From positions 1 to 56,872 of the forward strand of contig CAMDDX010000005.1 in assembly GCA_945893075.1 (NCBI GenBank): DNA of 56,872 nt, written 5' to 3'. Positions 9,952 through 51,845 of this stretch are shown in pieces. Both the position numbers and the translations under genes were made by a program. Below the pieces are notes generated by a model, which worked only from the letters and a program-made list of their open reading frames with translations, did no database searches and had not been told where the DNA came from. Within the stretch, counting starts at the first letter, position 1. Every line of letters starts with the position of its first letter. This stretch comes from Planctomyces sp. SH-PL62 (GTDB lineage: Bacteria; Planctomycetota; Planctomycetia; Planctomycetales; Planctomycetaceae).

Positions 9952-10016
9952 CTTCGCGACCTCTGCGCCCTTCTGTTCAAATCTGTTTGAAACAGAAGGA
10001 CGCAAAGGGCGCGAAG
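9952..10016. repeat. Palindrome, GAACAGAAGG class
   Basis: 26-base arms (9952-9977 with 9991-10016, three mismatches) around a 13-base loop, sitting between ald and the glycogen synthase gene. It is the same class as the copies at 44231, 46796 and 47337. Confidence 0.8.
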
Positions 10017-28382: not shown

Positions 28383-28479
28383 CCGGCTGAAAGCTGTGGG
28401 CTGAACGCTGATGGCTGTTATCCCAATCCTCGAATTTGAAATGACAGCCTTCAGCCTTCCGCCCACAGCTTTCAGCCGG
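28383..28479. repeat. Imperfect long palindrome
   Basis: Outer 19-bp perfect arms CCGGCTGAAAGCTGTGGGC (28383-28401 with 28461-28479) continue inward imperfectly (CTGAACGCTGATGGCTGT against ACAGCCTTCAGCC). It lies between the FAD oxidoreductase and aldo/keto reductase genes. Confidence 0.8.
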
Positions 28480-33165: not shown

Positions 33166-33475
33166 AACCCCACCGAGCTTGCCTCATTGATCTCTACACA
33201 ACTCCAAGATCAAGACTCTGATTTAGGTCTCGCTCATGCAGTGAATGAGTCTTTCTCCCATTCGCTGCCTCCCTAAATTCGCTGTCGAGTCCTTCTCTTT
33301 GAATTGAAGGCGTCCCCGACGGCTTCGGACGACAAAAGATCGACAGCGAATTTAGGGAGACAGCGAATGGAATGCCTGCCGACGGTCTCGTGACGACGCG
33401 TGGCACCGCCTCTTGCCAAGAATTGTCTGCGGATCGACGTTGTGTAGAGACCAATGAGGCCAGCTCGGTGGGGTT
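33166..33475. repeat. Nested palindrome (310 bases)
   Basis: Outer arms of 37 bases (33166-33202 with 33439-33475, two mismatches) enclose inner 31-base arms (33258-33288 with 33340-33370, one mismatch). The 631-base gap between 33028 and 33658 holds this and no gene I can support. One palindrome appears to have been inserted into the loop of another. Confidence 0.88.
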
Positions 33476-44230: not shown

Positions 44231-44309
44231 CTTCGCGCCCTTTGCGACCTTCTGTTCAACCCAATTGCACAAAACCATTTTTGAACAGAAGGTCGCAGAG
44301 ATCGCGAAG
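44231..44309. repeat. Palindrome, GAACAGAAGG class
   Basis: 29-base arms (44231-44259 with 44281-44309, three mismatches) in the divergent gap before the PPC gene. Same class as 9952, 46796 and 47337. The rest of that gap shows nothing else. Confidence 0.85.
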
Positions 44310-44359
44310 TGAATCGCTGGAAGTGACCACTCTTGTTGTTGAGTTCGCAAAGACAATCT

Positions 44360-46786
44360 ATGCCACGAAATGTTTTGTTCCTGACGGTACTCCTCACGCT
44401 CGGATGGTCGAGTGCCGCGTTTCCGCAAGCATTTGTTGAGCAGCTTTCGCCGCCAGTGCTGCAGCGCGGAACGGTGAACCGGATCGAAGTGCTTGGCAGT
44501 GACATGGCAGAGGCGATCGGGCTTTGGAGTTCGCTACCGTCGGACATGTTTCGTGCTCGGCCGGTTGAAGCGAGCGGTGCGAACAGAGCTGTGTTCGATG
44601 TCGAATTGACCGCTCAAGCGCCGCTTGGCTTTTACGGCCTGCGACTGGCGACTCGCAGCGGGCTGAGCAACGTGCATTTGTTTCTGGTCGATGAGTTGCC
44701 GGTGACTCGTAGCTGGACTCTCCGAGTCGAGCCGCCGTCAGAAAAAGTGCTCGACTCGGAGAGTCTAGCTGCGGCAATCAAACTGCCGGCGTGCATCACC
44801 GCGCCTTGTCGTCCGGCGGCGATCGACCGCTATTCGATCACGGTTGAAAAAGGCCAGCGCGTCGCGTTCGAGGTCATCGGCAATCGGCTCGGCAAGGACT
44901 ACGACCCGCTCGTGCGAGTTCGCGATGCGAAAGGCAAAGTGGTTGCCGAATGCGATAACTCAGTCGGTCTGTTCTTCGATTGCCGGTTCGCTCACACATT
45001 TGCCGAAGCCGGAACTTTCACAGTCGAAGTCCGCGACTCGCGGTTCGAGGGACATCCGACGTGGCACTACGTCCTGCGAATGGGTGACTTCCCGGAAGCT
45101 CGCGTGTCGGTGCCGTCGGCCGCGCGAATTGGTGAGACAACGACGCTCACCTTCCCACAGGTTCCGGGTTTGCAGTTGCCCGTCGAGTTCGCTGCCAATC
45201 GTCCGCTCGGCAGTTACTTTCAAGAGGTCCGGCACTCACCGAGCGGACTCGCGACCTGGATTCCACTCGTGCTCAGCGACTTGCCGACGGCCGTCGAAGT
45301 TGAGCCGAACGATACTTTAGAGACGGCGACTCTCGTTTCCGCAAAAGTTCCAGCGACGTTGAACGGTGTGCTCGGCAAGCCGGGGGATGTGGATTGGTTC
45401 GCGTTCGAGTTGGCCAAAGATCAGAAGCTCAACGTGCAAGGGATCGCTCGCACGATCGGCTCGGCGGCGGATTTAGAACTGGTGCTGTTCAATGCCGACG
45501 GCCGCGAGGCGCGGCGTGTGGATGACACCGATCTCGACGAAGCCAGCTTCGATTTCAAAGCGGACAAGGCCGGGCTGTATCGCCTGCAAGTGCGCGACCT
45601 CGCACGCGACGGCGGGCCGGAGTTTGCCTATCGCATCGACGTGCGAGCCGGTGGGCCGCAGTTTCAATTGCTCGCCGAAGCGGCCGAACTCACGATCCCA
45701 CAAGGGACGTATCAGCCGCTGTCGCTGAAGGTGACACGCACCGAATTCAATGGTGAGATTCAACTGGAACTGCGCGGTGCTCCCGCCGGCATGACGCTCG
45801 AACCGAACGTGATCCCCGCCGATGCAATTGAGTTTGTCGGCCGCGTGATCGTTGCGCCGAGTAGCCTGACTCTCCGAGTCGGGTCGGCTTCCGGAAAAGC
45901 ACCCGACTCGGAGAGTCAGGCTACGGGACTGCACTCGCTGCAAGTGATCGGCACGGCATCGGTCGAAGGCGGGACCGCATTGCAGGGCATCACCAAGACG
46001 AAGCCACTGGTCGATCGGCAACTCAAGAACGTGGACTTGATCCCGTATGCACTCCGCGAGGATCAGCGACATCTCCCGCCGTCGCTCACTAACCAGATCG
46101 CGGTCATGATCACGCCACCGCCGCCGTTCAATGTTGAGCTCCCCGAATCGTTGATCAAACTCACGCGCTATCAGACCGCCGAGTTCCCCATCGTGACGAC
46201 ACGCAGCGCCGGCTTCACGGCCCCGATCACGTTTACCGTCACCGGAGGCCAGATCGGCGTCGAGGCTGAAGAGCGAAACCAACTCTACGCCCGCTTCACT
46301 CCGGCGACCGCCGACCGACTCACTTCGTCGGGGACGTTCTTCAATCGCATCCTCACAAATCTCGCGAAGCACCGTGTCGATCTGACGGCGTCGGCCGAGG
46401 TCAACGGTCATCGTGTGAACCTCATCCGCACATTCCGACTGGAAGTGCAAAGCGCTTTCCAGCCCACCATCGAACCAGCTCTGCCCACCGCCGAACCGGG
46501 CGGGATTGTCCGCTTCAAAATTCTCGCCAACCGAGTCGCCACGTTCGATGGTCCGGTGACGTTCACGCTCGGCCCGCAGTCTGGCTTCACGTTTCCCGAA
46601 AACGTCACGATCCCAAAGGGTGCCGAGTCCGTCGATGTGGAACTCAAAGCCGATCCGAAGCTGAACCCCGGCCGCCACAACCTTCGCCAGCAAGTCGCCG
46701 GCTTCGTCGGCAAGTACGAAGAAAGTTTCAACCTGCCGAACATCCCCATCGAAATCACAAAACCTATGACACCCGGAGGAAAGTAG
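44360..46786 (+). CDS. PPC-domain exported protein
   Basis: An 808-residue exported protein with a signal peptide (MPRNVLFLTVLLTLGWSSA). It has PPC-type (pre-peptidase C-terminal) beta-sandwich repeats, clearly near residue 310 with VEVEPNDTLETATLVSAKVP and GDVDWFAFELAKDQKL, and an earlier one with RYSITVEKGQRVAFEVIGN. The C-terminal half is Ig-like (FTVTGGQIGVEAEERNQLYA and later FTLGPQSGFTFPENV). Such proteins often neighbour DUF1549/DUF1553 genes and likely form part of their surface complex. Two palindromes are translated in frame near residues 117-137 and 501-522. Confidence 0.85.
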   Translation: MPRNVLFLTVLLTLGWSSAAFPQAFVEQLSPPVLQRGTVNRIEVLGSDMAEAIGLWSSLPSDMFRARPVEASGANRAVFDVELTAQAPLGFYGLRLATRSGLSNVHLFLVDELPVTRSWTLRVEPPSEKVLDSESLAAAIKLPACITAPCRPAAIDRYSITVEKGQRVAFEVIGNRLGKDYDPLVRVRDAKGKVVAECDNSVGLFFDCRFAHTFAEAGTFTVEVRDSRFEGHPTWHYVLRMGDFPEARVSVPSAARIGETTTLTFPQVPGLQLPVEFAANRPLGSYFQEVRHSPSGLATWIPLVLSDLPTAVEVEPNDTLETATLVSAKVPATLNGVLGKPGDVDWFAFELAKDQKLNVQGIARTIGSAADLELVLFNADGREARRVDDTDLDEASFDFKADKAGLYRLQVRDLARDGGPEFAYRIDVRAGGPQFQLLAEAAELTIPQGTYQPLSLKVTRTEFNGEIQLELRGAPAGMTLEPNVIPADAIEFVGRVIVAPSSLTLRVGSASGKAPDSESQATGLHSLQVIGTASVEGGTALQGITKTKPLVDRQLKNVDLIPYALREDQRHLPPSLTNQIAVMITPPPPFNVELPESLIKLTRYQTAEFPIVTTRSAGFTAPITFTVTGGQIGVEAEERNQLYARFTPATADRLTSSGTFFNRILTNLAKHRVDLTASAEVNGHRVNLIRTFRLEVQSAFQPTIEPALPTAEPGGIVRFKILANRVATFDGPVTFTLGPQSGFTFPENVTIPKGAESVDVELKADPKLNPGRHNLRQQVAGFVGKYEESFNLPNIPIEITKPMTPGGK
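44709..44772. repeat. GTAG-foot doublet inside the PPC gene
   Basis: 24-base arms (44709-44732 with 44749-44772, two mismatches): GTAG foot on the left, GCTGC on the right, and an inner GACTC/GAGTC hairpin. It is read as TLRVEPPSEKVLDSESLAA. It shares its arm with the copy at 45861. Confidence 0.85.
45861..45924. repeat. GTAG-foot doublet inside the PPC gene
   Basis: Perfect 24-bp arms (45861-45884 with 45901-45924), from GTAGCCTGACTC to GAGTCAGGCTAC, with an inner GACTCTCCGAGTC hairpin. It is read as LTLRVGSASGKAPDSESQAT. Confidence 0.93.
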
Positions 46787-46795
46787 AGGACTAAG

Positions 46796-46913
46796 TTTTG
46801 AACAGAAGGTCGCAAAGAGCGCGAAGGTCTCAGGCAAAGGTGAAATTGAATAGATTGTTTCGGTCAGGCTCTGCCTGTTTCACTTCGCGTCCTTTGCGAC
46901 CTTCTGTTCAAAA
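46796..46913. repeat. Palindrome flanking the GxxExxY gene, left copy
   Basis: 31-base arms (46796-46826 with 46883-46913, two mismatches) with outer TTTTGAACAGAAGG. It ends 10 bases before the start codon of the nuclease-like gene. Same class as the right copy. Confidence 0.9.
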
Positions 46914-46923
46914 GGAATTCCTC

Positions 46924-47325
46924 ATGCACCCACATTTCGAAAAAGCTGACAAGTTGACTCGAGAAGCCATTGGAGCCGCCATTGAAGTCCACCGAATCCT
47001 CGGACCAGGGCTGCTCGAAAGCATCTATGAAAAGTGTCTCCTGCGAGAATTGGCAATTCGTGGCATCGAGGCAATTCGTCAGAAGAATGTCCAGATCGAG
47101 TACAAGGGTGAGGTCTTTGAAGAAGAACTGCGATTCGACCTGTTGGTGGAAGGCTGCCTGCTGTTGGAACTCAAGGCGGTCCAAGAAGTCCACCCGATTC
47201 ACAAGGCGTCTTTGCTGAGCTACATGAAACTTCTCAACGTCCCATTGGGACTCGTGATCAACTTCCACGAAATGAAGCTGGTTGATGGAGTCTCACGAAT
47301 GATCCTGCACGGAGCAGATCGGTGA
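46924..47325 (+). CDS. GxxExxY protein (PD-(D/E)XK nuclease-like)
   Basis: A 133-residue protein of the GxxExxY family, predicted to have a PD-(D/E)XK nuclease-like fold. Seen: the family motif GPGLLESIYEKCL (G29, E32, Y35), then RFDLLVEGCLLLELKAV with D72 and the E82-x-K84 pair that would carry metal and catalysis. It then has SYMKLLNVPLGLVINFHE. Family members have no firm biochemical role. The gene sits between two palindromes of one class, 10 and 11 bases from their ends, so it may be a passenger or the enzyme of a small mobile element. The ATG follows an AAGGAATT sequence. Confidence 0.9.
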   Translation: MHPHFEKADKLTREAIGAAIEVHRILGPGLLESIYEKCLLRELAIRGIEAIRQKNVQIEYKGEVFEEELRFDLLVEGCLLLELKAVQEVHPIHKASLLSYMKLLNVPLGLVINFHEMKLVDGVSRMILHGADR

Positions 47326-47336
47326 TTTTCGAAAGA

Positions 47337-47457
47337 GGTTTGAACAGAAGGTCGCAAAGAACGCGAAGGTTGGACAAGTGGAAGAAAACAGAAGCGAGAG
47401 TTCTTCGCTGCCAATTCTGTATTCCTTCGCGTTCTTTGCGACCTTCTGTTCAAAACC
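47337..47457. repeat. Palindrome flanking the GxxExxY gene, right copy
   Basis: Almost perfect arms of ~33 bases (47337-47369 with 47424-47457) with the same TTTGAACAGAAGGTCGCAAA lead as the left copy. Starts 11 bases after the nuclease-like gene stop. Confidence 0.9.
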
Positions 47458-51769: not shown

Positions 51770-51845
51770 AGCTGGCGAAAGATAAAGGGCGGAAAATGAA
51801 ACAGTCTGTTGGCTTTCATTTTCCGCCCTCCATTTTTCGCCAGCT
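51770..51845. repeat. Palindrome, GCTGGCGAAAAATGG class
   Basis: 32-base arms (51770-51801 with 51814-51845, four clustered mismatches) in the divergent gap before the enolase-superfamily gene. Same class as 27031 and 31445. Confidence 0.85.

Follow-up and report, generated by a model that had tools for sequence, protein, structure and literature searches.

GxxExxY genes and the inverted repeats around them look like a new REP-type element that is based on an unrelated enzyme and ranges from planctomycete-like genomes to archaea. We consider the chances slightly better than even that a GxxExxY gene and its surrounding inverted arms form one compact element resembling the REP/RAYT systems, with a PD-(D/E)XK nuclease replacing the HUH enzyme. 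The gene from which this analysis started lies in a stretch of 56,872 nucleotides, referred to in its entirety as the window. We know of no function assigned to the very widespread GxxExxY family, which to our knowledge has been unexplained so far. In the mostly open-access literature covered, which did not include PMC9756366 (the one paper naming PF13366), we found no link between GxxExxY/PF13366 proteins and repeats, and the two papers that mention GxxExxY do so in passages on other subjects.

The gene is an intact open frame of 133 codons, and its product matches solely two family profiles: TIGR04256 (133.7 bits; cut-off 35) and PF13366 (PDDEXK_3; 127.7 bits; cut-off 22), the latter being its sole Pfam family. 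These matches and the PD-(D/E)XK fold of the modelled protein (pLDDT 92) bear out the initial description, made by a sequence-only reading, of a 133-aa PD-(D/E)XK-like gene. The structure nearest to the model is 4ic1 (Cas4 SSO0001; Z 8.8), and lower-ranking matches include the archaeal Holliday junction resolvase Hjc (2wj0; Z 5.7) and other nucleases. The fold is what the protein has in common with Cas4, lambda exonuclease and Hjc, from which it differs in possessing its own repeats and in giving no sequence match in a profile search against solved structures. With just two cysteines, the protein of the window lacks a Cas4-type, four-cysteine iron-sulphur site. Searches with TIGR and Pfam profiles revealed no known transposase fold or family in it, including the HUH (Y1) transposase of REP-RAYT, and the family profiles gave no match to the TIGR02436 four-helix-bundle (S23) family. 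Residues E82 and K84, singled out earlier for mutation as a control, are indeed conserved in the protein, along with E32, Y35, D72 and N113; G29, E32, Y35, D72, E82 and K84 are invariant in alignment A3. Across 109 GxxExxY proteins, D72 is retained in 109/109 and both E82 and K84 in 105/109, such that the predicted active site (D72, E82 and K84, with E32/Y35 from the GxxExxY motif) is near invariant. Orthologs of the gene show dN/dS values of 0.04-0.17, indicating purifying selection, and keep their position within the genus; GxxExxY genes are inherited vertically, in place.

The gene is bracketed, at distances of 10 and 11 bases, by two palindromes of one class (Table 1), just as had been claimed from the letters alone. 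The upstream palindrome is 85% complementary over 41 nt and the downstream one 100% complementary over 31 nt, and the two outer arms, both directed at the gene, constitute terminal inverted repeats of the insertion-sequence type, the inner arms being copies in reverse. A search of the window for the arm motif GAACAGAAGGTCGCAAAG at 3 mismatches or fewer yields 8 hits, where shuffled sequences give an expectation of 0.06, and the exact core of this motif, GAACAGAAGGNCGC, occurs 51 times in the 7.57-Mb genome, as opposed to 0 occurrences of the reversed control. The two gene-free copies reported earlier, at 9952 and 44231, were recovered by our searches; what required correction was the order of their arms. 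Whereas the palindromes at the gene are arranged as A-loop-A', the gene-free copies show the opposite arrangement, A'-short loop-A. From 40 gene-free copies, whose loops vary, we derived a consensus arm for the class of the form GAACAGAAGG-N-CGC(AA/AG/GA)AG-RN-CGCGAAG, comprising about three degenerate units with a spacing of roughly 9-10 bp; a GTAG/CGTC tag beside the arms is absent from the consensus of these 40 copies. The arm of the window class reads GAACAGAAGGTCGCAAAGAACGCGAAG and that of another class GGCAGAACGATGGGGGCAGAACGAT.

Table 1. Positions in the window of the GxxExxY gene, the arms that surround it and the gene-free copies of the same class.
Feature	Position	Strand	Remarks
Outer left arm, TTTTGAACAGAAGGTCGCAAAGAGCGCGAAGG	46796..46827	+	Canonical orientation, pointing to the gene; shared by GxxExxY loci across phyla
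Inner left arm, reversed copy	46883..46913	-	Pairs with the outer left arm to form the upstream palindrome, 46786-46923
GxxExxY PD-(D/E)XK nuclease gene	46924..47325	+	133 aa; from family profiles, residues and model
Inner right arm	47339..47369	+	Pairs with the outer right arm to form the downstream palindrome, 47339-47454
Outer right arm, inverted relative to the outer left one	47424..47457	-	Closes the 662-base unit
Gene-free copy, reverse arm order (A'-25 nt-A)	44231..44309	.	Intergenic
Gene-free copy (A'-11 nt-A)	9952..10016	.	From motif search and comparison of copies

The flanks of GxxExxY genes were surveyed in a set of 40 genomes related at the level of genus, family or class, and 25 of these carry the gene. 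For 88 GxxExxY genes in this set we compared the two 350-nt flanks with each other, counting a score of at least 20 as a match and using windows 700 nt further out as controls. The flanks match each other in 76% of the 88 genes, against 0/75 controls, and flanks taken from different GxxExxY genes of the related genomes match in 0-2%. The genome of the window has seven GxxExxY domains, and its other GxxExxY genes likewise have repeats on both sides, belonging to other classes (more weakly in the case of L002, with a score of 16). A test across phyla was based on 76 scorable loci obtained by a wide scan of named genomes with a six-protein alignment as the query; these came from Bacteroidota, Chloroflexi, Acidobacteriota, Proteobacteria, Verrucomicrobiota, Cyanobacteria, archaea and others. 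With the edge of each flank set at the start of the match and an inverted-flank score of at least 18, inverted flanks were found at 46/76 loci (61%), against 0/189 controls and 3.6% of cross-locus comparisons, and at many of the remaining loci a sub-threshold unit is present on one side or on both. The survey of flanking palindromes that had been proposed as a check thus came out in favour of the association in both sets. Judged by eye, the general arm, read toward the gene, is TTnACC-RCNNAG-RN-CRCNNAG. The spacing of its units, measured coarsely, is about 8-10 nt at genes of single-domain proteins and nearer 14-15 nt at those of two-domain proteins. The two-domain proteins (about 270 aa) include L003/L005, L006, L007, L061 and L096-L118; in many cases the second of their domains has a weak score or none.

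The repeats also vary with the protein. Among 109 genes with arms, arm similarity correlates with protein identity (Spearman 0.39; at most 0.10 in 300 label permutations), and the correlation persists when restricted to pairs below 65% protein identity (0.38; permutations at most 0.13). By this measure, the sequence class of the arms tracks the GxxExxY protein. Counting three classes of repeats in twelve genomes of the same genus, we obtained mean copy numbers, with the cognate gene present vs absent, of 45 vs 4, 17 vs 2 and 9 vs 1.5. The relation of repeat number to gene presence has p = 8e-5 in a stratified permutation across genomes that are related to one another, with phylogeny uncorrected. 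Exceptions are the genome G010, with 18 window-class arms and the gene of this class undetected, and the gene L109 of G007, an ortholog of L107/L108 without flanking arms in a genome that has 2 copies of the repeat of its class; L109 is possibly a natural case of loss. Together with the flank survey, these two relations sustain the core of the original proposal, namely an enzyme with cognate palindromes and gene-free copies.

The closest known kind of system is REP/REPIN-RAYT (TnpA-REP), in which the gene is flanked by its own palindromes, inverted pairs are dispersed and there is class specificity (PMC3116915, PMC3733652, PMC8266576). The GxxExxY system looks alike in its cognate flanks, its dispersed intergenic inverted pairs and the class specificity between gene and repeat, with the genes here being vertical and in place, and it may work alike. 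It differs in having a PD-(D/E)XK nuclease in place of an HUH tyrosine transposase and in its arms, which consist of short degenerate units in arrays, have their sequence conserved and lack the GTAG/CGTC tag. Because the enzyme is not of the HUH type and the tag is missing, we place the system outside REP-RAYT. Insertion sequences and MITEs resemble it in the inverted termini around a single gene and in the gene-free derivatives. The GxxExxY element differs from these in that it lacks a known transposase and recent multi-copy genes and that the termini of its gene-free copies face each other; target duplication was not found in orthologous intergenic DNA that is too diverged for the ends to be fixed.

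In the model that we propose, each GxxExxY clade would have its own arm motif, and the protein would most likely recognise its arms as double-stranded DNA sequence; this recognition is inferred from the covariation of arm and protein and from the conservation of the arms. The intact PD-(D/E)XK site would nick or cut at or beside the arms, and repair or replication would then spread the paired arms (A'-loop-A) through intergenic DNA and maintain them there, with the gene staying put and being inherited vertically. The step of cutting and copying is speculative.

The main rival, which we regard as rather unlikely, is a set of binding sites that serves the host: the protein would be a regulator or chromosome factor acting on the arms, the copies would be kept for the benefit of the cell (at 3' ends, or in topology or replication), and spread would be occasional. 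The history of the gene-free copies speaks for this. Approximately 9/28 sites of the window's genome have an orthologous gene-free copy among 18 sampled sites of G007. Alignment of seven ortholog pairs gives 95.5% identity in the arms, far above the flanks (75%) and loops (76%), and the outer 13 nt of the arms, which were unused in finding the copies, are 94% identical. The alignments indicate that orthologous gene-free sites are long-lived and constrained, with many of them ancestral. Also in keeping with a service to the host, the copies are mostly intergenic, in convergent or codirectional and rarely in divergent settings, and the gene is under strong purifying selection with its position kept. 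Against it stand the several unrelated classes found in each genome, the nuclease site that is intact in nearly all members, and the differences in sites between sister species, including a swap of class at a single spot.

These differences are best seen at the site of the window's gene, the neighbouring genes of which are present in several sister genomes. G007 has the same gene and the same palindromes. G010 lacks the gene along with one palindrome and has just a single palindrome at the site, a state that fits deletion between direct repeats; alternatively, the G010 site may be ancestral and without the gene. G003 has at the same spot, 6 nt past the stop codon, a gene-free palindrome of another GxxExxY class, the cognate gene of which (L100) is found in G003 itself, and at the site in G001 nothing palindromic was seen. 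As for the gene-free copies of the window, the one at 9952 is missing from the orthologous interval of G007, and none was found corresponding to that at 44231 at the ends read of the orthologous interval in G003, G007 and G008. Site occupancy turns over among sister species, with sites being occupied, reduced, class-swapped or empty. We found no fresh transposition, target duplication or near-identical multi-copy genes in these comparisons, and the orthologous intergenic DNA is too diverged for the exact ends of the element, or a duplicated target, to be read. The description of the gene and its palindromes as a mobile unit hence has partial support: sites turn over, fresh transposition was not found, and the genes remain in place under purifying selection with many copies ancestral.

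Returning to the model of a nuclease with its own repeats, a fact that weakens the case for an anatomy made by the enzyme is that S23 genes (TIGR02436), which are not nucleases, share the inverted-repeat setting: 15/26 of them scored in the flank test, with controls at 0/46. A nuclease is thus not required for such an anatomy. S23 genes are known from intervening sequences of 23S rRNA that have terminal inverted repeats at their borders (PMC4990558), and the likeness consists of a short gene within inverted repeats; the protein is unrelated and without a nuclease site, and the S23 repeats have other units. In the S23 genes L123 and L124 of the window's genome and in L314-L342, the inverted repeats are composed of short tandem units, for example GTTGAGG or CAAAGTG, unlike GxxExxY arms.

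The S23 anatomy lends something to a further reading, which we hold to be distinctly improbable, that the units are moved or maintained by another enzyme (for example, RAYT), with GxxExxY and S23 genes being cargo in the loop. RAYT-type genes are indeed present in 34/40 of the related genomes. Such genes (PF01797) from the same genomes served as a positive control, scoring in 16/19 cases in the flank test; the flanks observed there are GC-rich hairpins and differ in type from the GxxExxY arms. That arm sequence tracks the GxxExxY protein and that repeat number follows the GxxExxY gene also argue against a passenger role.

We give little credence to an element acting at the level of RNA, in which pairing of the arms in the transcript would create a long stem with the gene in its loop, similar to the S23-bearing intervening sequences of 23S rRNA. 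The enclosure of the gene by inverted arms, the similar layout of S23 genes and the terminal inverted repeats of their intervening sequences are all as such an element would have them. The test lies in whether the two arms of one copy vary together. In the 40 gene-free copies, the free positions of the two arms agree in 23 cases vs 19.3 expected, 20 vs 18.2 and 16 vs 11.9, which is close to independence, and two further free positions show a small excess of agreement (30 vs 25.6 and 28 vs 24.8 expected), such that a weak effect of pairing is possible. Since the free positions hardly covary, it is the motif that is kept and not perfect pairing, and a stem as the main constraint is disfavoured. 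In the gene-free copies, moreover, the arm sequence is retained with the arms in reverse order and no gene enclosed. On this sequence evidence, the arms look like protein recognition sites and not stems kept for pairing.

That ordinary REP sequences adjoin the gene by accident is a reading with next to nothing left to it: palindromes of other classes abound in the window (54 inverted pairs), but the flank survey with its empty controls, the class specificity and the link of gene to repeat contradict it. Pure chance is likewise contradicted by the controls (0/75 and 0/189) and by the gene-repeat link.

A wider form of the proposal, that of a nuclease acting on its own repeats, we put forward tentatively, at somewhat below even confidence: GxxExxY proteins would be the first PD-(D/E)XK enzymes to make and spread their own palindromic repeats, in a REP-like system, selfish or domesticated, that is independent of HUH enzymes, uses an arm code (CRCNNAG-type units) common to the family in bacteria and archaea, and finds a nuclease-free parallel in the S23 genes. 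If so, a second enzyme class, unrelated to the first, would join the REP problem, a large group of these genomes' palindromic repeats would be explained, and there would be a natural set of small nucleases whose own flanks reveal the DNA motif of each. The cognate DNA site readable around each GxxExxY gene offers a first concrete substrate to test. What the elements with S23 and 23S intervening-sequence genes are is an old question, on which the shared anatomy may also throw light.

A phage or defence origin of GxxExxY was considered and rejected, there being no PHROGs or PADLOC match and only 5 relatives among 2.9 million viral contigs scanned. Of the GxxExxY genes located on viral contigs of IMG/VR (L295-L298), three have strong AT-rich inverted flanks of another style (scores 44-57). 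G000 and G004 have neighbouring proteins at L037 and L147 that are 100% identical, possibly pointing to cross-contamination of metagenome bins.

Several of the other palindromes of the window can be related to genes elsewhere. The gene-free palindrome at 51770-51845 (GGCGGAAAATGAAGGGCGAAAAATGA) belongs to the class that flanks the GxxExxY gene L006 of the same genome, and the palindrome at 33258-33370 (CCATTCGCTGCCTCCCTAAATTCGCTG) is similar to the class of the GxxExxY genes L096/L100 of sister genomes. The palindrome at 28383-28479 has GCTGAAAGCTGTGGGCTGA units, as found beside the four-helix-bundle-type genes L125 and L314. Another, at 45861-45925 (GTAGCCTGACTCTCCGAGTCGGGT...), lies within the long open frame 44333-46786 and leaves this frame unbroken; dozens of copies similar to it are found on both strands in G000 and G010.
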